Positions 50,819 through 64,000 of a stretch of 64,000 nucleotides of DNA are shown one piece after another. The position numbers and the translations under genes are program-made. The DNA is from Mesorhizobium sp. CAU 1732 (GTDB taxonomy: Bacteria > Pseudomonadota > Alphaproteobacteria > Rhizobiales > Rhizobiaceae). Under the pieces are notes generated by a model. The model ran no database searches. It had not been told where the DNA came from and saw only the letters and a list, made by a program, of their open reading frames with translations. The stretch's first letter is position 1. The number at the start of each line of letters is the position of its first letter. Where the stretch lies: positions 472,001-536,000 of the forward strand of contig NZ_JBDQQR010000002.1 in the NCBI RefSeq assembly GCF_039888675.1, given 5' to 3'.

Positions 50819-51904
50819 CTACCAGCTTTCCGTGGATTGCATGATCTCGCGCGCCATATGTTCCAGCGGCAGGACCTTGGCTGCCGCGCCGCGTGCGATC
50901 GCCTCCCTGGGCATGCCGAAGACGACGGATGTGGCCTCGTCCTGCGCCACCGTATGCGCGCCGGCATTCTTCATCTCCTCGAGGCCGCGCGCGCCGTCGT
51001 CGCCCATGCCCGTCAGAATGATTCCCACGGCATTCGCGCCGGCAGACCGCGCGGCCGACCGGAAGAGCACGTCGACCGATGGCCGGTGCCGCGAGACCAG
51101 CGGCCCGGTTCGGACGGAGACGTGATAGCGCGCGCCCTGCCGCTCCAGCAGCGTGTGGCGATCGCCCGGCGCGATGAGGACATGCCCGCGCAACACCGGG
51201 TCGCCATGTTCGGCCTCCTTGACCTCGACCTGGCAAAGGCTGTTCAGGCGGCGCGCGAAGGCGGCGGTGAATTTTTCGGGCATGTGCTGGACGATGACGA
51301 TGCCGGGCGCGTTGGCCGGCAACGCTTCCAGCACTTCGCGCAGGGATTCCGTGCCGCCGGTCGATGCGCCGATGCAGACGACCTTTTCCGTCGTCTTCGC
51401 CATCGCCCGCCCGGTCGGCGGCGGCAGCACCGCATCGGCCGTCAGCTTCTTCGTCGTCCCTGATGCGGACGCGCCGTGTGTGCGGCGCACGTTTCCGAGG
51501 CGCGCCTGCGCGGCTGCCTTGACGACATGCCTGATACGATCGCCGATCTCGTTGAGGTGGTCGGCCGCGGCGATCTTCGGCTTCAAAATGACATCGACCG
51601 CGCCGGCTTCGAGCGCCTGCATCAGCGTTTCCGACCCCATTTCGGTCAATGACGAGCACATCACCACCGGGATCGGCTTCTGCGACATCAGCTTGCGCAG
51701 GAAGGTGATGCCGTCCATGCGCGGCATCTCGACATCGAGCGTGATGACGTCCGGAATTTCCTCCTGGATGCGCCGTGCGGCGACGAAGGGGTCAGGAGCA
51801 ACGCCCATGACCTCGATGTCGGGGTCAGCCTCGAGAACGGAGACCAGCGTCTGGCGGACGCTTGCCGAGTCGTCGATGACGAGAACGCGTATCTTTTTGC
51901 GCAT
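50819..51904 (-). CDS. cheB: protein-glutamate methylesterase CheB, locus II
   Basis: A 361-residue CheB with receiver phosphoacceptor D57 ([12 protein letters not shown]), a linker of about 50 residues, and the methylesterase motifs [20 protein letters not shown] and [10 protein letters not shown]. It is the last gene of chemotaxis locus II, 9 bp after cheR. It differs clearly from the locus I CheB in linker and receiver, so the two loci are separate pathways rather than a recent duplication. Confidence 0.95.
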
Positions 51905-51913
51905 GCGGGGCCT

Positions 51914-52768
51914 TCAGGTGCGCTGGAAGACCGTGTTCGCCACGGTGCGAACCGGCAGGTCGAGGCCGGCGATGGTTTCGGAATGCCCGATGAAGAGATA
52001 GCCGCCCGGCACGAGACAGTCGCACAGCCGGTTCAGCACCTCGCCCTGCGTCTTCTTGTCGAAATAGATCAGCACGTTGCGGCAGAAGATGATGTGCATG
52101 GGTTCGCCGACATTGTAGCGCGAATCCATCAGGTTGAGCCGACCGAAACCGATCTTGGAGCGCAGATAGGGTGTAACCCGTACATCCCGCCGCGTCTCGT
52201 TGGCGGCCTTCAGAATGTATTTGCGACGCATGTCTTCCGGCACAGGATCGACGATCTCGCTGGCGTAGATGCCAAGCCGGGCCTTCTCCAGCACATCGGT
52301 GCTGAGGTCGGTTGCGAGGATGGAATACGAGCCGTCCCGCTTGTTCTCGAAAAACGTGTCGAGAACCATGGCCATCGTATAGGGTTCGGCCCCGGTCGAG
52401 CAGGCGGAGCTCCACGTCCTGATCGATTTGACGCCCTTGCCGACGAGCGCCGGGAGTGCAAGGTCCTTCAGGTAGTCGAAATGCTTCGGCTCGCGAAAGA
52501 AGTCGGTCTTGTTCGTCGTCACTGCATCGACGAGATGGACGAGTTCCGTCTCCAGCCCGCCATGGTCGAAGACATAATCGCAGTAATCATCGAAGGCCGG
52601 AATGCCGGTTGCCCGGAGACGGCGACGCAGCCGCCCCTCAAGCATCGTATGCTTGGCCGGAGGCATCTTGATGCCGCTGTAACGGTAGATGAATGCCGAC
52701 AGTCTGTCGAAATTCCGCTTGCTGAGCCGATCATTCATCGGCTGTAATCTCATTGCTGCGGTTGCCAT
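51914..52768 (-). CDS. cheR: protein-glutamate methyltransferase CheR, locus II
   Basis: A 284-residue methyltransferase with VDAVTTNKTDFFREPKHFDY, the SAM loop TWSSACSTGAEPYTMAMVLD, and IIFCRNVLIYFDKKTQGEVL. The start at 52768 follows GGGTGTGAGT; the longer frame upstream is cheW read out of frame. It lies between cheW and cheB of locus II. The locus II receptors lack a xWxxF tail, so this enzyme must recognise them without that tether. Confidence 0.94.
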   Translation of the reverse strand: MATAAMRLQPMNDRLSKRNFDRLSAFIYRYSGIKMPPAKHTMLEGRLRRRLRATGIPAFDDYCDYVFDHGGLETELVHLVDAVTTNKTDFFREPKHFDYLKDLALPALVGKGVKSIRTWSSACSTGAEPYTMAMVLDTFFENKRDGSYSILATDLSTDVLEKARLGIYASEIVDPVPEDMRRKYILKAANETRRDVRVTPYLRSKIGFGRLNLMDSRYNVGEPMHIIFCRNVLIYFDKKTQGEVLNRLCDCLVPGGYLFIGHSETIAGLDLPVRTVANTVFQRT

Positions 52769-52796
52769 ACTCACACCCAAACGCTGTACACCTGAA

Positions 52797-53282
52797 TCAG
52801 GCCGCTTCCGGCTGGCGCGCCAGAAGAACCGTGTCGTGCTGCGACAGGAGCTTGGCGAGATCGACCAGGACGACGAAGCCCTGGTCGCGCCGCACCACGC
52901 CGGCGATGTAGTCCGAGCGCCAGTGGCTGCCGATGTCGGGAGCCTGCTCGATCTGGTCACGCCGGAACGGCGTGACCTCGTAGACCCGGTCGGCGACCAT
53001 GCCGAGCGTCAGCAGCCTGTCTTCCATCGGAATGTCCATGACGAGCACCCGCGTATGCGGCGTCGGCACGGTCCTGGTCAGTCCGAGCTTGAGCCGCAGG
53101 TCGATCGTGGGCACACCTTGCCCACGCACGTCCCTCAAGCCCAGTAGGTAGTCTGGGCCATTGGGAATCTTGAAGGCTTCCTCATGGTCCAGGATTTCCC
53201 GCACGACTTCGACAGGCACCGCGAAGACTTCATCGCCGAGGCTGAAGGTGACGAACTGGGCTTCGAGAGACGTGGCGGACAT
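52797..53282 (-). CDS. cheW: chemotaxis coupling protein CheW, locus II copy 1
   Basis: A 161-residue CheW that starts [20 protein letters not shown] and has the core [20 protein letters not shown]. It also carries RRDQIEQAPDIGSHWRSDYI near the C-terminus. It is a close paralogue of the CheW at 55.3-55.8 kb, differing by scattered substitutions, consistent with tandem duplication of an mcp-cheW unit. It starts 1 bp before the stop of the receptor gene upstream. Confidence 0.94.
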   Translation of the reverse strand: MSATSLEAQFVTFSLGDEVFAVPVEVVREILDHEEAFKIPNGPDYLLGLRDVRGQGVPTIDLRLKLGLTRTVPTPHTRVLVMDIPMEDRLLTLGMVADRVYEVTPFRRDQIEQAPDIGSHWRSDYIAGVVRRDQGFVVLVDLAKLLSQHDTVLLARQPEAA

Positions 53283-53283
53283 C

Positions 53284-55110
53284 TTATGCAGACTCCTTGA
53301 AGTCGACGTCGTGCTCGTCGGGGCCGCCCATGGCCATGTCGAGCGCGAAGCCCCTGACACGTTCCTGCTGCGCGGAGACGGAGTTGCGGGCCGGCGCCGC
53401 AGGCTTGCGGTAGGTCGGCTTCGCGGACGGCTTGATATGCGCGACCGTGGGCTTGGCGGCAGCCGGCTTCTGGGCGGGCGCGGCACGACGGGTGCCCGCA
53501 TTGTCGGTGCGGAAGAAGGCGATCGATGCCTGGAGCTCTTCGGCCTGCGCCGCCAGCTCTTCGGACGTCGCCGACATCTCTTCCGATGCGCCGGCATTCT
53601 GCTGCGTCACCTGGTCGAGCTGCTGGATCGCCTCGTTGATCTGGGCCGCCCCTATATCCTGTTCACGGCAGGCCGCGCTGATCTCGGAGACAAGTTCGGC
53701 TGTCTTGCGGATATCGGGAACCAGACGCGTCAGCATCTCGCCCGCTTCGGCCGCAACCTTGACCGTGTCGTCGGAAACGGCGCTGATTTCCGCTGCTGCG
53801 GTCTGGCTGCGTTCGGCGAGCTTGCGCACTTCGGACGCGACGACCGCAAAGCCCTTGCCATGCTCACCGGCGCGCGCTGCTTCCACCGCAGCGTTGAGTG
53901 CGAGCAGATCCGTCTGGCGTGCGATCTCCTGCACGATGCCGATCTTCTCCGCGATGGTGCGCATCGCCTGAACGGCGCGGGTCACCGCCTCGCCGCTGGC
54001 TTCCGCGTCCTTGGAGGACTGGCGGGCCATCTTCTCGGTCTGGGCCGCGTTGTCGGCGTTCTGCTTGATGTTTGCGGCCATCTGCTCCATCGAAGACGAT
54101 GCCTCTTCGGCAGCCGATGCCTGTTCCGTCGCGCCTTGCGAGAGCTGTTCCGAGCTCGACGACAATTCCTGGCTTCCCGACGAGACGTTTTCGGCAGCCG
54201 CCGCAGCGTCCGCCACGACGGAACGAAGACGTTCGACCATGCTTTGCAGCGACAGGCCGAGCGTGTCCTTGTCGGAGAGCGGCGTTGGACGAACGGTCAG
54301 GTCGCCTTCCGAAATCTGCTCGGCGATGCGCGCCGTCTCGCGCAGGTTCGCCGTCATCGTGTTGACGTTGTCGACGAGGTCCTTGATCTCGTCGTTCGTG
54401 GTGACATCGACCTTCTGGTTCAGATCGCCGATCGAAACGGCCTTGGCCAGATCGATGACGCGGGCCAGACCGCGGCTGATGCCGAGCGCAATCCACAATG
54501 CGATGCCGATGCCGGCCACGAGCGCCACGCCGGTGATCGCAAAGACGATATTGCGCGTGTTGGCGTATAGTTCGTCGGTGACGCGATCGGCTTCGACCAT
54601 CGCGACCTTGTTGGCCTCTACCTGCGTGCTGATGATGCCTTCGATCGCATCGGTGATCGGGCGGCCTTCCACGCGCGTCAGGCGAACGGCTTCGGCAGTG
54701 TTGCCGGAACGCGAGGCGCTGCGGATGCGGTCGTCCACCTGAACCAGCCGGTCGAATTGCGTGCGAACGTCAGCCCACTGGCGGGCGGCGTCCTCGCTGG
54801 CTGAATTGTCCCGCAGCCACTGGACTGTCTCCAGAAAATTCTGACGGTTACGGTCGCTCGCATCCGTATAGCTCTGGATTTCCGCAGGCGTCTCTGAATT
54901 CGCCAGGTTGAGCTGCGCGCGAGCGATGCGGAGCTGGTAGTCTCCGAGGTTTTGGGCCCGCTCCAGCCGAGCGGCCGGTCCCTCCACCATTTCGGTGATG
55001 GACTGGTTGAGATTGGACAGGCTGTAGATTCCGTAGCCTGCCGTTATGCCGAGCATGAGGATCAGCAAGCCGAACCCCAAGGCGAGTTTCATTTTGATGG
55101 TGAAGCGCAT
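53284..55110 (-). CDS. methyl-accepting chemotaxis protein, locus II copy 1
   Basis: A 608-residue receptor with a short N-terminal cytoplasmic part ([14 protein letters not shown]), a membrane segment, a helical periplasmic domain of about 150 residues, a second membrane segment ([20 protein letters not shown]), HAMP and a signalling domain. The receptor tip is [20 protein letters not shown]. The tail [18 protein letters not shown] is shared with the next receptor and is not a WxxF pentapeptide. The start at 55110 is supported by position relative to the first helix. The periplasmic domain differs from that of the neighbour, so ligands probably differ. Confidence 0.94.
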
Positions 55111-55328
55111 TTGATCTGTAGCCCCAAAAAGATCGTAAGTTTGCTGTGACGCGGCGCGCCTGTAGTGGCGTGTCGGTGGTGAAAGAACGTGCCGGTCGCG
55201 GCAGGGGAAGAGTGCAACTCCACTGCCTGGATGGCCCGTGCATGAAGCCGGACGCCTGTACATTCCCGCCTGTCTTTATCTGGCTCTTGTTTGCGGGAAT
55301 GCCGTGTTCATACCTGCTCAATCAGGTT

Positions 55329-55814
55329 TCAGGCCGCCGCAGACGCGTCGGCCAGAAGTGTCGTATCGCGCTCCGAGAGAAGGCTTGCGAGGTCGATCAG
55401 GACGACGAAGCCCTGGTCTCTCCGCACGACGCCGGCGATGTAGTCGGATCGCCAGCGGCTGCCGATGTCGGGAGCCTTTTCCACCTGGTCACGCCGGAAT
55501 GGCGTGACCTCGTAGACCCGGTCTGCGACCATGCCCAAAGTGAGCATGCGATCGTCGAGCGGGATATCCATGACCAGCACCCGCGTGTGCGGTGTGGCCA
55601 CCGTCTTCGTCAGGCCGAGCTTGAGGCGCAAATCCATGACCGGAACGCCCTGGCCTCTCACATCCCGCAGGCCCAGCAGGTAATCCGGACCGTTGGGAAC
55701 CCTGAAGGCCTGCTCGTGGTCCAGGATTTCCCGGACCACGCCGACCGGCACCGCGAAGACCTCATCACCGAGACTGAAGGTGACGTATTGGGCTTCGTCG
55801 GAGCCGGACATCAT
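55329..55814 (-). CDS. cheW: chemotaxis coupling protein CheW, locus II copy 2
   Basis: A 161-residue CheW nearly identical in architecture and much of its sequence to copy 1 ([40 protein letters not shown]). The first ATG (55814) overlaps the receptor stop upstream as ATGA; a second ATG follows immediately. A 218-bp gap follows before the next receptor, the largest inside the operon, and could hold an internal promoter. Confidence 0.94.
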
Positions 55815-57907
55815 GCAGACTCCCGGAAGTCGGCGTCATGCTCGTCCGGTCCGCCCATCGCCATGTCGAGCGCAAAGCCCTTGGCGCGTTCCTGCTGGGC
55901 ATGGACCGGGTTGCCGGCCTGCTTCTTGAATACCGGCTTTGCAGCCGGAGACTTGCGAGGTGCCTGAGCCGGCGCTGCCATCTTGGCGGCGGGAGCGCTT
56001 CGCTTCGCGTTCGCAGCTTCGATGCGGAAGAACGCGATGGAAGCCTGGAGTTCCTCGGCCTGTGCGGCGAGTTCTTCCGACGTCGCCGACATCTCTTCCG
56101 ATGCGCCCGCGTTCTGCTGCGTCACCTGATCGAGCTGCTGGATCGCCTCGTTGATCTGGGCAGCGCCGATATCCTGCTCGCGGCAGGCGGCACTGATCTC
56201 GGAGACGAGTTCGGCGGTCTTGCGGATATCGGGAACCAGACGCGTCAGCATCTCGCCCGCTTCCGTGGCGACGGTCACGGTGTCGCCCGACAATGCGCTG
56301 ATCTCGGCTGCCGCAGCCTGGCTGCGTTCGGCAAGCTTGCGCACTTCGGAAGCAACGACCGCGAAGCCCTTGCCGTGCTCGCCGGCGCGGGCAGCTTCGA
56401 CAGCCGCGTTGAGCGCCAGCAGATCGGTCTGACGTGCGATTTCCTGCACGATCCCGATCTTTTCCGCGATGGTGCGCATCGCTTCCACCGCACGCGTCAC
56501 GGCAGCGCCGCTGCTTTCAGCATCCTTGGAAGACTGACGCGCCATCTTCTCGGTCTGGGCTGCGTTGTCGGCGTTCTGCTTGATGTTGGCAGCCATCTCC
56601 TCCATCGAGGACGAGGCCTGTTCGGCAGCCGAAGCCTGCTCGGTGGCGCCCTGCGACAACTGCTCGGAGCTCGACGACAGTTCCTGACTGCCTGCCGAAA
56701 CGTTCTCGGACGCGGCCAGAGCATCGCCCACGACGCCGCGCAGACGCTCGATCATCTTGTTCACGTGGCCGAGCAGGTCGCCGACCTCGTCACGCGTGGT
56801 GATGTCGGCATAGCGCGTCAGATCCCCCTCGGCGACGGAGCGGACCGCTTCATTGGCATTGCGCAGACCGCGTCCGATGGAGACGACGATCCAGAACGCC
56901 GCAACAATTGCGATCAGGGTCGAAAGCGCAAGCAGACCCATCAGCATCATGCGGCTGTTCTCGTAGGTCGCGTCCGCTCCGGCGATGCCCTCAAGCTTGA
57001 GCTGGCGGTTGAACTCGACGAGTTCGTTGAGCGATTCCACTGCCGCGGCACGAGCCTCACGCATCTCGCCATTCGCAAGCAGCGTGGATTCGTACGTGCT
57101 GCGCTGGATGGCAACAGCATTGGAACGATCGGCTGCGCCCTTGACCGTGGCAAACGCGGCCTGCATGGCCTGCACGGCAGCGCGCTGCTGACCCTGCGCA
57201 GATGCCAGCAATGCGGAAATGTCCGTTTCGATCTCCGTGGCGGCGGCGTCATACGCCTTCATCCAGTCGGCCTGCCGGTCGGGATCGCTGCTGGCGAGGA
57301 GAATATTGCGGTGCTGGCGGAAGAAGTTACCGACATCAGCCCGGATTTCCGAAGCCCGCTCATAGTTCTCCAGGGCACCGACGTCTCCGCGCAGCACGGA
57401 TTCCCGTATCGTTCTGGAAAGCGTTACCGCGGCTTCCTCGGCGGCGCGGTAGGCGACTGTGCCGTCCGTCGTCGATATGTTGAACGCTTCAAAATCCGTG
57501 TTCTTCTTGGTGATCTCCTGCAAGGTCAGGTTCTGGGCCCAATAGGACGACCACTTTGTCGTGAAATCGTTGAGCAAACCATGGCCCGTTTGGGTGGTGA
57601 GCTTGCTTCTGACGTCTTCGGTAAGCTTCGCCAGATCCGCGTTACGTGCAGCCAGGGTCGTGGAAATCTGGTCCATTTCCGCGGCGTCGTTGGTGAGGAT
57701 CATCTGCCGTGTCTGCGAGCCGATTTCGCCGGTAAGCGTTTCAAGCCCGCTGAGGCCGAGCGTGGCTTCGCCGGTTACGTTCACGAGCCGGTCCATGGTC
57801 TCGTTGAGCTCGCCAAGACTCTGGACAGCAACGAACATACTGACGCCGGACAGCAGAATGACCGTTGAAAACGTCGCTATGAGCTTGGTTCTGATGGTTA
57901 ATCGCAT
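55811..57907 (-). CDS. methyl-accepting chemotaxis protein, locus II copy 2
   Basis: A 698-residue receptor. A first membrane helix ([20 protein letters not shown]) is followed by a large helical periplasmic domain of about 290 residues, roughly twice the size of that in copy 1. A second helix ([20 protein letters not shown]), HAMP and the signalling domain follow. From [20 protein letters not shown] to the shared tail [10 protein letters not shown] the cytoplasmic part is almost the same as copy 1. GGGGGA precedes the ATG at 57907. The contrast between the similar cytoplasmic half and the different sensor half shows duplication followed by sensor exchange or divergence. Confidence 0.94.
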
Positions 57908-57933: not shown

Positions 57934-58440
57934 TCAGTTGACGGTGCGTGCGGCGCCGGGTGCAGGCGCGTCGTGATGATCGAAGATGGCTTGCAGGTTC
58001 GGGAGGATGATGAATTCGCCCCCGCGCTTGAAAAGCCCCTCGATGTAATCAGGCCGCCAGCGCATACCGACGCTGGGTGGCGGTTCGCTCGCCTTCATGG
58101 CGAGAGTCGTCACTTCATTGACCTTGTCGGTCCGGAGGCCGATCAGGGTCGTTTCCCCTTTCAGGTCGAGCTCGATGACGACGATGCGGCTGTCGATCGT
58201 CGCCTCCGTCGCATCCATCCCGAAAGCCAGCCGAAGGTCAGCCAGCGGGATCACCCGTCCGCGAAAGTTGATGACGCTGCCGACGAAACGTTCCGCGCCC
58301 GGAACCCGCGTCTCGGGCAGCATGTCGAGGATTTCCTGCACCCGCATCGCCTCCAGCGCGAAGGTTTCGCCATGAAGGTTGAAGGTGAGGACTTCCATTT
58401 CGTCGCCGGCAGGGCCGGCATCTGTTGTCTGCTGCATCAT
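57934..58440 (-). CDS. cheW: chemotaxis coupling protein CheW, locus II copy 3
   Basis: A 168-residue CheW of a different subtype from the other two in the locus ([40 protein letters not shown]). It has a C-terminal segment, [20 protein letters not shown]. The ATG at 58440 has AGGGTGATT upstream and lies 5 bp after the cheA stop. It is likely the main adaptor for this CheA. Confidence 0.93.
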
Positions 58441-58445
58441 CGCAA

Positions 58446-60473
58446 TCACCCTGCAGCGCGCAGTCGCGCTTCCTGTTGCTGGCCGGCCGCCACGAGATGG
58501 GCGACGTCGAGAATGAGCGCGACGGTGCCGTCGCCCAGGATCGTCGCGCCGGAAAAGGTCGCAACGTCGGCGTGCAGCTTCGACATCGACTTGATGACGG
58601 TCTGGTGGTCGCCGATGATCTGGTCGACCACGAGGCCCACGCGCTCGGAGCCCGTCGAGATGACCACGATCTTCTGATGCGGGTCGGGTCTCGTGCCGGT
58701 ATCGAAGAGTTCGCGCAGGCGCAGGAACGGAACCAGCGCGTCGCGCAGCGAGATGAAGGACCGGCCCCGCGAGCGCAGATCGTCTTCGAGCGACAGTTCG
58801 ATGCATTCCTCGACCGCGGCGAGCGGGATCACGTAGCGCCCCTCGCCGACGCGGACGAGCAGCCCGTCGATGATCGCCACCGTCAGCGGAATGCGAAGCG
58901 ATATCTCCGACCCCTCGCCCGCCTTGCTGGTCATGTCGATGGCGCCGCGCAGCGACTCGATCGTACGCTTCACCACATCCATTCCGACGCCGCGCCCGGA
59001 GAGGTTGGTGACCTTCTGCGCCGTCGAGAAACCAGGATGGAAAACGAACTGCAGGAGTTCCTGATCGCTCACCGCCTGGCCCGGCTCTATCAGCCCCGAT
59101 GCTTCCGCCTTGGCGCGAACCTTCGCCCGATCGATGCCACGGCCGTCGTCGGTAATCCTGATGATGACCTCGCCGCCGGCCTGTCGGGCAGACAAGCGGA
59201 TCGTTCCCATGGACGGCTTGCCGGCAGCCTCGCGATCGCCCGGCAGTTCGAGCCCGTGGTCGATGGAGTTCCGCACGAGATGCACCAGCGGGTCGGCCAG
59301 CCGCTCGATGACGGTCTTGTCGACCTCGGTGCTCTCGCCCTCCGTGACGAGCTCGATCGCCTTGCCGGTCTCCCGCGCAAGGTCATGCACGAGCCGCCGG
59401 AAACGGCCAAACAATGTCGCGACCGGCACCATGCGCAAAACCATCATCGTATCGCGCAACTCGCCGGACAGCCGCTCGATCTCCTCGGAGACCGAGCGCA
59501 GATGCAGGTCCGCGCTGCTGGCGGCCAACTGGCTGAGGCGAGACTGCGCGATGACGAGTTCGCCGACGCGGTCCATCAATTCGTCGAGACGTTCGGCGGG
59601 AACGCGGACGTTCTCGGCAGACTTGGCCTGACGAGCCTCGGCCGTCATCGTGACCGGCGCGAGGTCGACCGGAAGTATGGCAGGACGCGGATCGTTCGCC
59701 GGGACCGCAACCGGAGGCGCTGCGACAGCAACCGCCTGTACCTCGCTCGAAGCGACCGGTGTTTGCTCTCCGCCCAGTTCCTCGATGCGAATCTGCATGT
59801 CGTCCATCACGAAAATGAACACGTCCTCGATCGCCGCGCGCGGCTGGTCCGTCTCGACCGTCACGTCCCAGGCGAGGTGGAGATCGGTTGGAACGAGCGC
59901 CTCGATGGGCGGGACGGCGGAGACGTCCGCCTTGATCGTTGCGGGACCCAGATCGCGGATTTCGGCCAGCAGCGCCAACGGGTTCGTGCCGTTCGACATC
60001 GAATTGACCGGCAGGCTGAACCCGACCTTCCAGCCCTTGCGGCCGCTCTGTGCGGGTGTGTCCGTCACAGGCGGAGGCGTGGCCGCCGCCCCGGTCTCGG
60101 CACCCTCGACGGCAGCCCTGAGTGCGCTCAGGAGGCCCTCGCCCCGCTCCAGATGGGCGGGCGTCACCGCGTCTTCCACCAGCGAGCGCATGTGGTCGCG
60201 TGCTGACAGAACGGCAAGGACGAGCTCGACGGTCGCCGGCACTTCGCCTTTGCGCACGCGGTCGAATGCCGTCTCGCAATGATGCGTGAACGCGGCCAGC
60301 GCCTCGAAGCCGAACATCGCGCCGGAGCCCTTGAGGGTGTGCAGCCCGCGAAACACGGCATCGATGAGGTCCTTGTCGGCAAGGCGGTGCGTGAGATCGA
60401 GCAACCCCTCTTCGACCTGCTCCAGAAGCTCGGCAGCCTCGATACGGAAAGTCTCGACAGGATCCATGCTCAT
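58446..60473 (-). CDS. cheA: chemotaxis histidine kinase CheA
   Basis: A 675-residue kinase. The P1 domain has phosphorylated H45 in FRGLHTLKGSGAMFGF. A variable region at about 100-290 may include P2. The dimerisation domain follows LDELMDRVGELVIAQSRLSQ. The ATPase domain has N-box LVHLVRNSIDHGLELPG, G1 RITDDGRGID and GRGVGMDVVKRTIESL, and a C-terminal CheW-like domain ends the protein. It overlaps cheY by ATGA. It is the only complete CheA in the window and phosphorylates CheY and CheB of this locus. Confidence 0.96.
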   Translation of the reverse strand: MSMDPVETFRIEAAELLEQVEEGLLDLTHRLADKDLIDAVFRGLHTLKGSGAMFGFEALAAFTHHCETAFDRVRKGEVPATVELVLAVLSARDHMRSLVEDAVTPAHLERGEGLLSALRAAVEGAETGAAATPPPVTDTPAQSGRKGWKVGFSLPVNSMSNGTNPLALLAEIRDLGPATIKADVSAVPPIEALVPTDLHLAWDVTVETDQPRAAIEDVFIFVMDDMQIRIEELGGEQTPVASSEVQAVAVAAPPVAVPANDPRPAILPVDLAPVTMTAEARQAKSAENVRVPAERLDELMDRVGELVIAQSRLSQLAASSADLHLRSVSEEIERLSGELRDTMMVLRMVPVATLFGRFRRLVHDLARETGKAIELVTEGESTEVDKTVIERLADPLVHLVRNSIDHGLELPGDREAAGKPSMGTIRLSARQAGGEVIIRITDDGRGIDRAKVRAKAEASGLIEPGQAVSDQELLQFVFHPGFSTAQKVTNLSGRGVGMDVVKRTIESLRGAIDMTSKAGEGSEISLRIPLTVAIIDGLLVRVGEGRYVIPLAAVEECIELSLEDDLRSRGRSFISLRDALVPFLRLRELFDTGTRPDPHQKIVVISTGSERVGLVVDQIIGDHQTVIKSMSKLHADVATFSGATILGDGTVALILDVAHLVAAGQQQEARLRAAG

Positions 60474-60838
60474 CGGCCCAGCACCTTCCTGACGATCCGG
60501 ACGAGCTGTTCGGAATCGAACGGCTTGGTCAGCCAGCCGGTAGCGCCCGCCGCCTTGGCGCGCTGCTTCATGCCCTCGTCGGATTCCGTGGTGAGGAAGA
60601 TGATCGGCACGCCCATATGGGCCGGCGACTTGCGCAACTCCTCGATCATGGTCAGCCCGTCCATGACGGGCATGTTCAGGTCGGTGACGATGAGGTCGTA
60701 GTGGTTCGCCTTCGCCTTCTCGATGCCCTGCGCGCCGTCGGCGGCTTCCGCAACCGTGTAGCCCGCGCCGCTGAGAGCGATCTTGATCGTCATGCGTATG
60801 CTGGCCGAGTCATCGACCGTGAGAATGGAAGCGCTCAT
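60470..60838 (-). CDS. cheY: chemotaxis response regulator CheY, locus II
   Basis: A 122-residue receiver with D9/D10, phosphoacceptor D53 (VTDLNMPVMDG), T83/T84 and K105 (LTKPFD). It is second in the operon between the STAS gene and cheA, overlapping both by ATGA. It is the natural first target of the adjacent CheA. It is not closely similar to the CheY at 103-492. Confidence 0.95.
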   Translation of the reverse strand: MSASILTVDDSASIRMTIKIALSGAGYTVAEAADGAQGIEKAKANHYDLIVTDLNMPVMDGLTMIEELRKSPAHMGVPIIFLTTESDEGMKQRAKAAGATGWLTKPFDSEQLVRIVRKVLGR

Positions 60839-61155
60839 TGCAGAACCCCTTCTGTGGTCCAGAGGCCGGCGATGTCGCTCTCGAGGAAGCCGCCCCGCGT
60901 GAGAACATCGAGCAACGGGCCCTGCGGATCGTGCGCAAGCTTAACCGCTTTACCCGATGCCCTTGCACTGACCTGAACGGAGATTAGAAGCTGAACGAAG
61001 CTGATATCAGCCTCGACATCCGAAGGTATCTCGATGTCTATTGATTGATGTGATGCCAGAGACGACGCCAATACTTCTTTCAATTCAGAAATATATCTAA
61101 TCGTCAACGGGCCAGACAAGCGGATGTAATCCGCTTCTGCGCCAGTATGTTCCAA
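60835..61155 (-). CDS. STAS domain protein, first gene of chemotaxis operon II
   Basis: A 106-residue single STAS-like domain (LSGPLTIRYISELKEVLASS, DIEIPSDVEADISFVQLLIS, GLWTTEGVLQ). The position that is a phosphorylatable serine in anti-anti-sigma factors is not obvious, with DISFVQ at the usual DSSG-like site. The start is a TTG at 61155 after CGGGGGCAAAA. It overlaps cheY by ATGA. Stand-alone STAS proteins opening che operons occur in other proteobacterial loci; their role is unclear and could involve scaffolding or control of CheA. Confidence 0.8.
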   Translation of the reverse strand: MEHTGAEADYIRLSGPLTIRYISELKEVLASSLASHQSIDIEIPSDVEADISFVQLLISVQVSARASGKAVKLAHDPQGPLLDVLTRGGFLESDIAGLWTTEGVLQ

Positions 61156-61490: not shown

Positions 61491-63191
61491 GTGAATCCAC
61501 AGATCGACGTCACCAGTTCCGCCCCGTCGAGCGCCCACCTCGGCGATCGCCTGGAGCATGCGCGAAGCCGGCTGGAACAGCGTTTCCTCGATGGCGGCAC
61601 GGTGCTGGCATCCGCGCTCGAACAGATCGGCGACCTGATCGGCGCACTCGATCAGGTCACCGGATCGCTGGGCGAGGATGCCGTCAACGCGACGATCGGA
61701 GACCTGACGGACACGGCCAATCAGCTTCTCGGGCTGCCCGCGCTGCAGACTGCGCGCCAGGACAGCATGCGCGAACTGGCGCAGTCCGGTGCCGTGCTTG
61801 CAGGACACGTCGATACGATGCTTGAGACGCTGCGCTATCTGCGCACCTTCGCGGTCACAGTGAAGATCACCGGCGCGGGCGCCATCGAGTTCGCGGGCTT
61901 CGCCGATGAAATGCTGGACAAGATCCAGAGCGGGCGAAACCAGGTCGACGGCTTTTCCGCCCGCCTCGTCCAGCTCTCCGCGCAGGTCAAGGCCGCGATC
62001 GCGTTCGGCACAGAACTCGACAAGCAGTATCAGGGCATCGTCCCGCAGGTGACCCGCGACCTGTCCGGCGATGCCGTGCGCATGGGCGACTATCACCGCG
62101 ACGTGGCGGACGTCGCCCGCGCGCTTGCCAGGCTGGTTCACGCCGTCCAGAGCAAGGTCGCCAAGGTGCTGTCGGCGCTTCAGATCGGCGACATAACCCG
62201 CCAGCGCATCGAGCATGTGCAAGCGGGCCTGACCATCGTCGACGAGATCAGGAGCGACACTGCCTTCCCGCAGGCCGACGCGCAGGCGATCCTCCGTTTG
62301 CTTGCCGATCAGACCGAAGACCTACTCGAGGAATTCCACGCGGGATGCCAGGTGGTGACGTCGAGCCTCGCCGGCCTCGCTGCGGATACGAAGGAAATCC
62401 TGGCACTCGGCAAAAAGGCGCGGGGCGATGCATCGGGCGGAAGCGAGAGCTTTTTGCGCGCGCTCGAAACCAGCGTCGGTGCCGCTCGCAGGCTCGTGGA
62501 CAAGGTGGAGGCATCGGGCGCACGCGCCGACGATGTGAGCCGTTCGGCCGGATCGACCGCGCAGGAACTGATCGACGGCGTCGACAGCATCCGGGCGATC
62601 AAGACCGAAATCCAGCACATGGCCATCAACACCAGCCTGCGTTGCAGCCGCATGGGCGAGGCCGGCAAACCCATGAACGTCGTGGCTTCGGAACTGCGCA
62701 TCTTCGCGGACCAGATGGAGACCGTGTCTTCGCACATTCTGGGCTGTCTGGATCATCTCAGCGCCCGCGCCAAGGGCCTGTCCGGCGACAATTCCGGGCT
62801 CACCCCGCGCATGGGCGAGACGCTCGATGGTGCCCTGTCTCACATACGCCAGTCCGGCGAGGAGATGGCCGGAAACCTGAAGGAACTCGCGATCCGCGGT
62901 GATCAGGTCGCAAAGAGCGTCGCGCAGAGTGTCGCCAAGCTCGACTTCACGCGCGAACTCGGCGACGTTCTCGAAGAATGCGCCGTTGCATTGGACACGG
63001 AGGCTGCGGGCCCTGTGTCGGCAGAAGACCGGGTCAGCGGCGATGGACCGTTGCACGGCATCGCCGAGCGCATTTTCGCGACCTACACGATGGCCAGGGA
63101 ACGCGACGTGCACAGGCGCCACTTCGATCAACCGGCGGCGGGTCATGCGCGCGCGGTCACCGCGCCCGACCTCGACGACGTCTTGTTCTAG
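61491..63191 (+). CDS. soluble receptor-like chemotaxis protein with CheZ-type DxxxQ motif
   Basis: A 566-residue all-helical protein without membrane segments or HAMP. Residues 220-245 contain LQIGDITRQRIEHVQ, in which D234-I-T-R-Q238 matches the CheZ/CheT phosphatase signature. Residues 370-410 form a degenerate receptor-tip hairpin (EIQHMAINTSLRCSRMGEAG then NVVASELRIFADQ). It ends LDDVLF, similar to the CheY-binding tail of CheZ. It is divergent from che operon II, so it probably acts on that locus as a cytosolic signalling scaffold and/or CheY phosphatase. The start is a GTG without a good ribosome binding site and may be revised. The function is inferred; it is not a standard MCP or CheZ. 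Confidence 0.72.
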   Translation: MNPQIDVTSSAPSSAHLGDRLEHARSRLEQRFLDGGTVLASALEQIGDLIGALDQVTGSLGEDAVNATIGDLTDTANQLLGLPALQTARQDSMRELAQSGAVLAGHVDTMLETLRYLRTFAVTVKITGAGAIEFAGFADEMLDKIQSGRNQVDGFSARLVQLSAQVKAAIAFGTELDKQYQGIVPQVTRDLSGDAVRMGDYHRDVADVARALARLVHAVQSKVAKVLSALQIGDITRQRIEHVQAGLTIVDEIRSDTAFPQADAQAILRLLADQTEDLLEEFHAGCQVVTSSLAGLAADTKEILALGKKARGDASGGSESFLRALETSVGAARRLVDKVEASGARADDVSRSAGSTAQELIDGVDSIRAIKTEIQHMAINTSLRCSRMGEAGKPMNVVASELRIFADQMETVSSHILGCLDHLSARAKGLSGDNSGLTPRMGETLDGALSHIRQSGEEMAGNLKELAIRGDQVAKSVAQSVAKLDFTRELGDVLEECAVALDTEAAGPVSAEDRVSGDGPLHGIAERIFATYTMARERDVHRRHFDQPAAGHARAVTAPDLDDVLF

Positions 63192-63237: not shown

Positions 63238-64000
63238 TCACGCGACCTGCTGGGCCGGGTGGTTCGTCACTGCCTCGAACAGGGGCCGGATGTCCGGCCA
63301 CTTCGCCTTGAACGCCTCCACGCAGGCCGGGTCGAAATGCGTGCCGCTGCAACGCAGGATCTCGTCATAGGCATCCTGTATCGGCCATGCACGCTTGTAG
63401 GGCCGCTCCGAGCAAAGCGCGTCCAGCACGTCGGCAATCGCGACGATGCGCCCTTCCATGGGGATCGCCTCGCCCGCCAGACTGGCGGGATATCCGCTGC
63501 CGTCCCACTTTTCGTGATGCGAGGCGGCGACCGTCGCCGCCATCCTGATCAGGTCCGACGAACCGCCTTCCAGGATCCGGCAGCCATATTCGACATGGCG
63601 GCGCATCGTCTCCACCTCGTCCTGCGTCAGCCGCCCCGGCTTTTGCAGGATGGCATCCGAAATCCCGATCTTGCCGATATCGTGGAGCGGAGCAGCGAGA
63701 TAGAGGATGCGCGCGCGCTCTTCCGCGAAGCCCATTCCCTCCGCGATCAGGCGCGACACCGTCGCGACGCGCGAGACGTGTTCACCCGTTGTCCCGTCGC
63801 GATATTCGATCGCGCGCGACAGCCGCCAGATCACCTCTTCCTCGCGATCCATGATGTGCCGCGTGGCGGCATCGACCTCGCGCGCAAGCATCCGCGCACG
63901 CTCCGCGAGCTCAAGCTGTGCCCGGCGCAGCGCAAGCAGGTTGCGAACCCGTGCCTGGAGTTCGATCCAATCGAAAGGCTTGTTCAGGAAGTCCGTCGCC
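63238..64000 (-). CDS. response regulator with HD-GYP phosphodiesterase domain (partial, 5' end outside window)
   Basis: The gene runs off the right edge; 254 C-terminal residues are visible. The first ones (ATDFLNKPFDWIELQARVRN, LLALRRAQ) are the end of a receiver domain. The HD-GYP domain has GEHVSRVATVSRLIAEG, LAAPLHDIGKIGI and HHEKWDGSGYP, with all metal-binding histidines and aspartates in place, so c-di-GMP hydrolysis is expected. An internal ATG at 63891 is not the true start, because the receiver reads in frame across it. It ends 46 bp from the convergent DxxxQ gene. Confidence 0.9.
   Translation of the reverse strand, partial: ATDFLNKPFDWIELQARVRNLLALRRAQLELAERARMLAREVDAATRHIMDREEEVIWRLSRAIEYRDGTTGEHVSRVATVSRLIAEGMGFAEERARILYLAAPLHDIGKIGISDAILQKPGRLTQDEVETMRRHVEYGCRILEGGSSDLIRMAATVAASHHEKWDGSGYPASLAGEAIPMEGRIVAIADVLDALCSERPYKRAWPIQDAYDEILRCSGTHFDPACVEAFKAKWPDIRPLFEAVTNHPAQQVA

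Follow-up and report, generated by a model that had tools for sequence, protein, structure and literature searches.

A soluble receptor-like protein with a CheZ-type signature may end signalling from within the sensory array

The window, that is, the whole 64,000-nucleotide stretch of Mesorhizobium sp. CAU 1732 DNA analysed here, carries a gene for a protein of 566 amino acids next to che operon II. The features of this gene and its product are as follows:

61491..63191, + strand: gene of the 566-aa tandem receptor-tip/CheZ-motif protein (open frame, GTG start)
61530..62276, + strand: N-terminal unit, aa 14-262, predicted to form a long helical hairpin of receptor type that carries the D..RQ site (model, Foldseek, profile)
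61848..61925, + strand: first receptor tip, strongly degenerate, aa 120-145 (predicted turn at 128-131)
62190..62204, + strand: D234-I-T-R-Q238, putative CheZ-type catalytic motif (D and Q invariant)
62295..63005, + strand: C-terminal unit, aa 269-505, second receptor-like unit (hhalign)
62610..62708, + strand: second receptor tip, aa 374-406, INTSLRCSRMGEAGKPMNVVASELR (PF00015, PDB match, alignments)
62940..62981, + strand: degenerate counterpart of the putative active site, aa 484-497, LDFTRELGDVLEEC (hhalign against the GDITRQRIEHV region)
63084..63113, + strand: conserved YTMxxERxxH, aa 532-541 (alignment)
63162..63188, + strand: acidic tail ending in LF, aa 558-566, seemingly of the CheY-binding kind (alignments)

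The divergent operon comprises the genes below. Those from the first CheW to CheB were assigned from the frame and from matches in relatives, and named by eye:

60835..61155, - strand: STAS-domain protein, first gene of the operon (PF13466, E 3.2e-7)
60470..60838, - strand: CheY of operon II, presumed substrate (sequence matches; phospho-acceptor aspartate D53 by eye)
58446..60473, - strand: CheA of operon II (sequence matches)
57934..58449, - strand: CheW
55811..57907, - strand: chemoreceptor
55329..55814, - strand: CheW
53284..55263, - strand: chemoreceptor, start codon uncertain
52797..53597 as listed, - strand: CheW, true start probably near 53280
51914..52960, - strand: CheR, start uncertain
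50819..51904, - strand: CheB

This operon is the published class F8 Che2 operon of Rhizobium. In the accessible part of PMC7617929, Che2 of R. leguminosarum 3841 runs from RL4036 to RL4028, and the nine genes listed there from cheY3 onwards lack both a STAS gene and the divergent one; the tags RL4037-RL4039 are absent from PMC7617929. The two operons are orthologous (CheA, 73%), and a homologue of the 566-aa protein also adjoins Che2 in strain 3841 (locus L057). Among 80 of 377 loci, a sample whose counts lean towards close relatives, CheY and CheA (both more than 60% identical to those of the window), CheW and a receptor lie beside the gene in 75. In 74 of these 75 loci, gene and CheA are divergent; in one (L081), CheA lies downstream. 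Moreover, six of six distant relatives adjoin the cheB end of a similar che operon. A STAS match was found in 67 of the 75 operon-bearing loci and in L020, that is, in 68 of the 80 related loci. Convergent with the gene of the 566-aa protein lies that of an HD-domain protein (63238-64000, - strand; HD-GYP type by eye). The stretch just upstream of the latter in the genome matches the receiver part of CheB (L123), so that the HD-domain protein is probably a response regulator. An HD-domain protein with 53% identity is found beside the gene in the distant locus L117.

The initial annotation pointed to a D-I-T-R-Q motif at residues 234-238, and its D and Q proved to be invariant. A bare DxxxQ is uninformative here, since its three copies in the protein compare with 2.5 expected from composition; hence, conservation is the test that counts. 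In the alignment of homologues, only the copy at 234-238 is invariant. The homology search returned 658 matches, the best 120 of which were aligned, the window's own protein among them. Throughout these best 120 of 658, LQ.GD..RQR.EH is invariant, with L230, Q231, G233, D234, T236, R237, Q238, R239, E241 and H242 identical in 120 of 120 rows. The Q..D..RQR..H site is likewise present in 80/80 genome loci (80 of 377), and Q231, D234, R237, Q238, R239, E241 and H242 are found in all 35 rows of an alignment that includes six distant relatives from the same class. These six keep Q..D..RQR.EH at 14-22% identity over the N-terminal unit. With them included, the N-unit alignment A2 has 8 invariant positions out of 249, six of which (Q231, D234, R237, Q238, R239 and H242) fall within one twelve-residue stretch. 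The survey could have told against the initial annotation, and it found D234 and Q238 conserved throughout.

Ordinary receptors dominate the A1 search of the same class (123 of 387 genomes at E<=1e-5). The matches taken as relatives were the window's own, G366, G350, G035, G305 and G041 (four down to E 7.8e-20), together with the weaker G292 and G343, which were confirmed by the N-unit profile search. The sequence of L120 is incomplete and contributes no C unit. As judged from these alignments, the 566-aa protein is a member of a conserved family, one that the public names of some relatives hide ('Myosin-11', 'uncharacterized protein YukE', 'Mla subunit MlaD', 'methyl-accepting chemotaxis protein'). 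Two candidate explanations were rejected. A chance motif does not account for the data, as DxxxQ occurs three times as composition predicts, yet one copy alone is conserved. A decayed receptor is at odds with dN values below half of dS in 25 of the 25 pairs computed, and with the retention of the motif at 14-22% identity.

A degenerate chemoreceptor tip and the lack of a transmembrane or HAMP part had also been pointed out, and both observations stand. The tip, at about residues 374-406, scores PF00015 (MCPsignal) at E 1.6e-4 and 22 bits, below the 34.6-bit cut-off. No Pfam match to HAMP, to a sensor domain or to a membrane anchor was found in the protein, which has no strongly hydrophobic stretch either (best 19-residue Kyte-Doolittle mean, 1.31). 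Its best PDB sequence match is 2ch7 (E 4.5e-7). Within the second tip, M377, N380, L383, R384, C385, G389, N396, V397, E401 and L402 are the same in 120/120 rows (best 120 of 658), R384 replacing the E of the receptor sequence IEAARAGE. Another receptor-like tip, the first in the chain and more degenerate still, is found at about residues 120-145; the initial annotation overlooked it.

The two halves of the protein match each other in a profile comparison (hhalign; E 3.6e-4, probability 37%; reversed control, 8.5e-3). This alignment superimposes the two tips and sets GDITRQRIEHV against the LDFTRELGDVLEEC region, where D485, F486 and C497 are lost in distant relatives. Both units match far better the single-unit proteins described below as hybrids: the N unit aligns with 17 of them at E 6.8e-16, tip and motif in register (reversed hybrids, 0.087), and the C unit matches hybrids at E 9e-15 (reversed hybrids, 0.011; both by hhalign). 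These matches argue for an internal duplication after which the first unit alone kept the site. By profile comparison, therefore, two receptor-like units follow each other in the 566-aa protein, and the D..RQ site is retained solely in the first.

For the first unit, the predicted fold resembles that of receptor cytoplasmic domains. Its model (ma412347594b8; pLDDT 89, pTM 0.52) shows a hairpin, Foldseek with this model places chemoreceptors at ranks 1-12 (best E 1.6e-5; integrative models account for three of the twelve), and the N-unit profile A2 matches PDB 2ch7 at E 9.1e-11. In the model, the D..RQ site lies on the returning helix, about 104 residues beyond the turn. Structural alignment puts it roughly level with the second methylation helix in receptors. 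On the other hand, the full-length model, with a low pTM of 0.57, contains one unbroken helix (318-436) that runs through the second tip, so that a hairpin of the second unit is not predicted there. Structure prediction of the protein alone thus returned the receptor-like hairpin for the first unit and, in the full-length model, did not return it for the second. Fold searches with the full-length model give unrelated helical bundles besides receptors, and they were left out of the argument. CheZ is not among the best 50 matches of any of the four fold searches, an absence that is no proof of a different fold.

The likeness to the chemoreceptor signalling domain (PF00015), including that of soluble receptors such as Thermotoga 3g67, lies in the predicted hairpin of the first unit and in the tip sequence. 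Unlike chemoreceptors, the 566-aa protein combines two degenerate tips in one chain with a D..RQ site near the second methylation helix level, and has no recognised sensor domain. It might still be a cytosolic chemoreceptor or an array-assembly factor, with tips that activate or dampen CheA2 and a D..RQ helix that is structural or serves as a partner site. Such a role would suit two receptor-like units, a protein in which no membrane anchor is seen and public names that include 'methyl-accepting chemotaxis protein'. However, it fits poorly with the degeneracy of the tips, with R384 where receptors have the E of IEAARAGE, with the lack of a recognised sensor domain, and with a D..RQ helix that is better kept than the tips among distant relatives. 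We consider this explanation rather improbable.

A profile search with the N unit led to single-unit proteins (347-535 aa in the set) that combine a canonical receptor tip with a later stretch such as MQFQDRTxQRLEHV. These hybrids are represented by the L132-L153 set, P0134 and P0136-P0138. Sixteen places outside the tandem family were chosen as hybrids before their neighbourhoods were seen, and counts out of 16 therefore do not cover every match. Left out were places without D...Q (L145 and L147-L152 being ordinary receptors or PAS proteins by sequence) and lower-ranked places of the hybrid search without a locus. The 17-row hybrid alignment omits L134 (wrong frame) and L143 (motif letters outside the pattern), both of which carry the motif. 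QFQD...Q is present in 16/16 fetched hybrid genes, at a distance from the tip of 114 residues in 13 and of 115 in 2, the remaining tip being outside the pattern. The proteins end in ELF or DLF in 15 of the 16. A strongly hydrophobic stretch (over 2.0) was detected in 6 of 17 hybrids. The 16 fetched genes come from as many other alphaproteobacterial genomes (L191-L206), and every one of them is surrounded by che genes, mostly directly 3' of cheB with cheY further on, or directly 5' of cheY-cheA.

The 566-aa protein has the same combination of a tip and a D...Q in one hairpin at near-fixed spacing, an LF tail and a che neighbourhood. Its tip-to-D...Q spacing is 110 residues versus 114, a difference that corresponds to a four-residue gap at the tip. 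Hybrids differ from it in their single unit, their canonical tip and, in some, a hydrophobic N-terminus. We found no description of the hybrid class or of the 566-aa protein in the open-licence PMC literature searched, and the hybrids apparently form a wider, undescribed class. The initial view, in which a soluble protein mimics a receptor while carrying a CheZ-type motif and a tail like the CheY-binding end of CheZ, agrees with the sequence; what changes is that the protein is a tandem and belongs to this wider class.

The hybrids also match CheZ. P0134 scores with PF00015 (E 1.4e-30) and, just short of the cut-off, with the CheZ family PF04344 (E 1.5e-6; 28.6 bits, cut-off 30.7), and PF04344 matches P0136, P0137 and P0138 at E 2.4e-4, 7.6e-5 and 3.8e-3, all below the cut-off. 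Aligned with 18 CheZ proteins (those of 30 fetched loci that passed the pattern), the 17 hybrids score E 1.1e-5, versus 4.6e-3 for the best of 30 block-shuffled CheZ decoys. Both units of the 566-aa protein are, by their profiles, homologous to these CheZ- and receptor-matching proteins. Compared with CheZ directly, the N unit gives a weak match (E 4.2e-3, best of 30 decoys 1.6e-2; probability 8%), and the C unit gives no match (E 0.2). As for the family models themselves, the search foreseen in the initial annotation found the sub-threshold receptor match and no match of PF04344 to the 566-aa protein at E<=1.

In CheZ, whose hairpins pair into a dimeric four-helix bundle, D143 and Q147 lie on a long hairpin and the C-terminal helix grips CheY; Q147 of the E. 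coli protein orients the attacking water. CheC and CheX are also known CheY-P phosphatases. The 566-aa protein resembles CheZ in its DxxxQ, predicted to lie on the returning helix of a long hairpin, in its acidic C-terminal tail ending in F, in the location of its gene among che genes and in the significant profile match reached through the hybrids. It differs from CheZ in its tandem units with receptor tips, and in having D-x-T-R-Q where CheZ has DLTGQ, with R instead of G. The region layout of CheZ and its conserved AXXFQ-DXXXQ stretch are given in the available part of PMC7750401. No family model of CheC or CheX matches the 566-aa protein at E<=1. In the whole genome, there is no match to PF04344 (E<=1), PF04509 (CheC, E<=0.1) or PF13690 (CheX, E<=0.1), which extends to the genome the earlier statement that operon II has no CheZ, CheC or CheX gene.

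The accessible part of the review PMC12654446 describes CheT of Sinorhizobium meliloti (Agbekudzi 2024) as a DXXXQ protein outside the CheZ sequence family and reports that it enhances dephosphorylation of one of two CheYs. Rhizobia thus use DXXXQ proteins outside this sequence family. The 566-aa protein is likewise an alphaproteobacterial DXXXQ protein of this kind, whereas CheT is part of the class F7 Che1 cluster. The far end of the window harbours che operon I, which encodes a 128-aa protein (505-891, + strand) with MQDADLSAQRI and a VDLF tail; it has no Pfam match and hence no recognised receptor domain. In three rhizobial genomes, its relatives are flanked by a cheD-like gene on one side and a fliF-like gene on the other (by eye), a position that we take to be the place of cheT, and the 128-aa protein is therefore probably the CheT orthologue. 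A CheT identity for the 566-aa protein was rejected, as the cheT position belongs to the 505-891 family in the three genomes.

The LDDVLF tail noted at the outset is present (..DLDDVLF), and F is the last residue in 117 of the 120 rows (best 120 of 658). Among the 80 loci (80 of 377), 78 encode a tail with LF or FF at its end, and both exceptions, L028 and L080, are without the che operon. Y, T, M, E and R of YTMxxER are present in the 34 of 34 rows that reach it in the 35-row alignment. YTMxxERxxH is as conserved as the putative catalytic motif, and it recurs in several hybrids.

Altogether, we propose, with a probability of about 0.66, that the 566-aa protein is a receptor-shaped, CheZ-type CheY-P phosphatase docked at the class F8 (Che2) array. 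Array docking, CheY binding and catalysis are steps that we infer. The two degenerate tips would place the protein in or beside the array of CheA, CheW and receptors. The acidic ..LF tail, perhaps together with YTMxxER, would catch CheY-P on the surface that the CheZ tail uses. D234 and Q238 would then reach into the CheY active site, with Q238 orienting the attacking water. Phosphate would be removed from CheY beside its kinase, and signalling would stop near its source. The CheY of operon II (60470-60838) is presumed to be the substrate from its adjacency.

The invariant D..RQ could also bind CheY-P without hydrolysing it. The protein would then be a non-catalytic sink or sequestering scaffold, whose tail and D..RQ face hold CheY-P at the array. 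YTMxxER and the final F are conserved as well as the motif, and a CheY that serves as phosphate sink has been reported for rhizobial Che1 systems (accessible part of PMC8429497). However, mere binding would hardly need D and Q at fixed spacing in 120/120 (best 120 of 658), and the relatives with canonical tips match CheZ. On balance, we regard a sink as unlikely.

The che2 operon is missing or fragmentary in five loci (L020, L028, L047, L069 and L080), and the best CheA in these genomes has 41-44% identity, none being of the F8 type. The gene is still there in all five, with D and Q retained in 5/5. The tail is lost in two of the five (L028 and L080) versus none of the 75 loci with the F8 CheA, a difference with a hypergeometric probability of about 0.003 (by hand), to which shared ancestry and assembly errors could contribute. 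That the tail is lost in operon-less loci alone speaks for a link between gene and operon, and for the tail having a function. L080 deviates at 11 of 86 near-invariant columns, versus at most 4 in any operon-bearing locus, although these columns were picked on the 75 operon-bearing loci, which favours them over the other five. The same neighbouring gene precedes the phosphatase-like gene in four operon-less loci (not in L047), and cheB or cheY fragments persist in three of the five.

Of the five genomes that lack an F8 CheA, three keep both motif and tail, so that Che2 may not be the sole partner. The protein could even be a phosphatase for another response regulator instead of the Che2 CheY, be it one of the operon I CheYs, CheB or the adjacent HD-domain protein. 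The persistence of the gene in five genomes where no F8-type CheA was found would be in line with this, as would the HD-domain neighbour shared by the window and L117. Against it stand the adjacency of the Che2 CheY and CheA in 75/80 loci and the loss of the tail only where the operon is gone, and we think it very improbable that the Che2 CheY is not the target.

If the 566-aa protein is the proposed phosphatase, its architecture allows a bolder speculation, which we ourselves hold to be doubtful. Since the CheZ-type site is roughly level with the second methylation helix, the state of the array could gate CheY-P removal, switching it on or off by the same changes in helix packing through which CheA is controlled. 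If true, arrays would control both phosphorylation and dephosphorylation, and a receptor hairpin may have been the ancestor of CheZ itself.

The accessible parts of PMC8429497 and PMC7617929 name no phosphatase for F8 (Che2) clusters. For the end of the signal in rhizobial F8 systems, the conserved gene that adjoins the operon offers a candidate. According to the same accessible part of PMC7617929, che2 of R. leguminosarum affects bacteroid numbers, which makes the candidate testable in a symbiosis model. More broadly, the hybrid class links chemoreceptors to CheZ at the sequence level, which is relevant to the origin of CheZ, and it would be a means of building signal termination into the receptor array.
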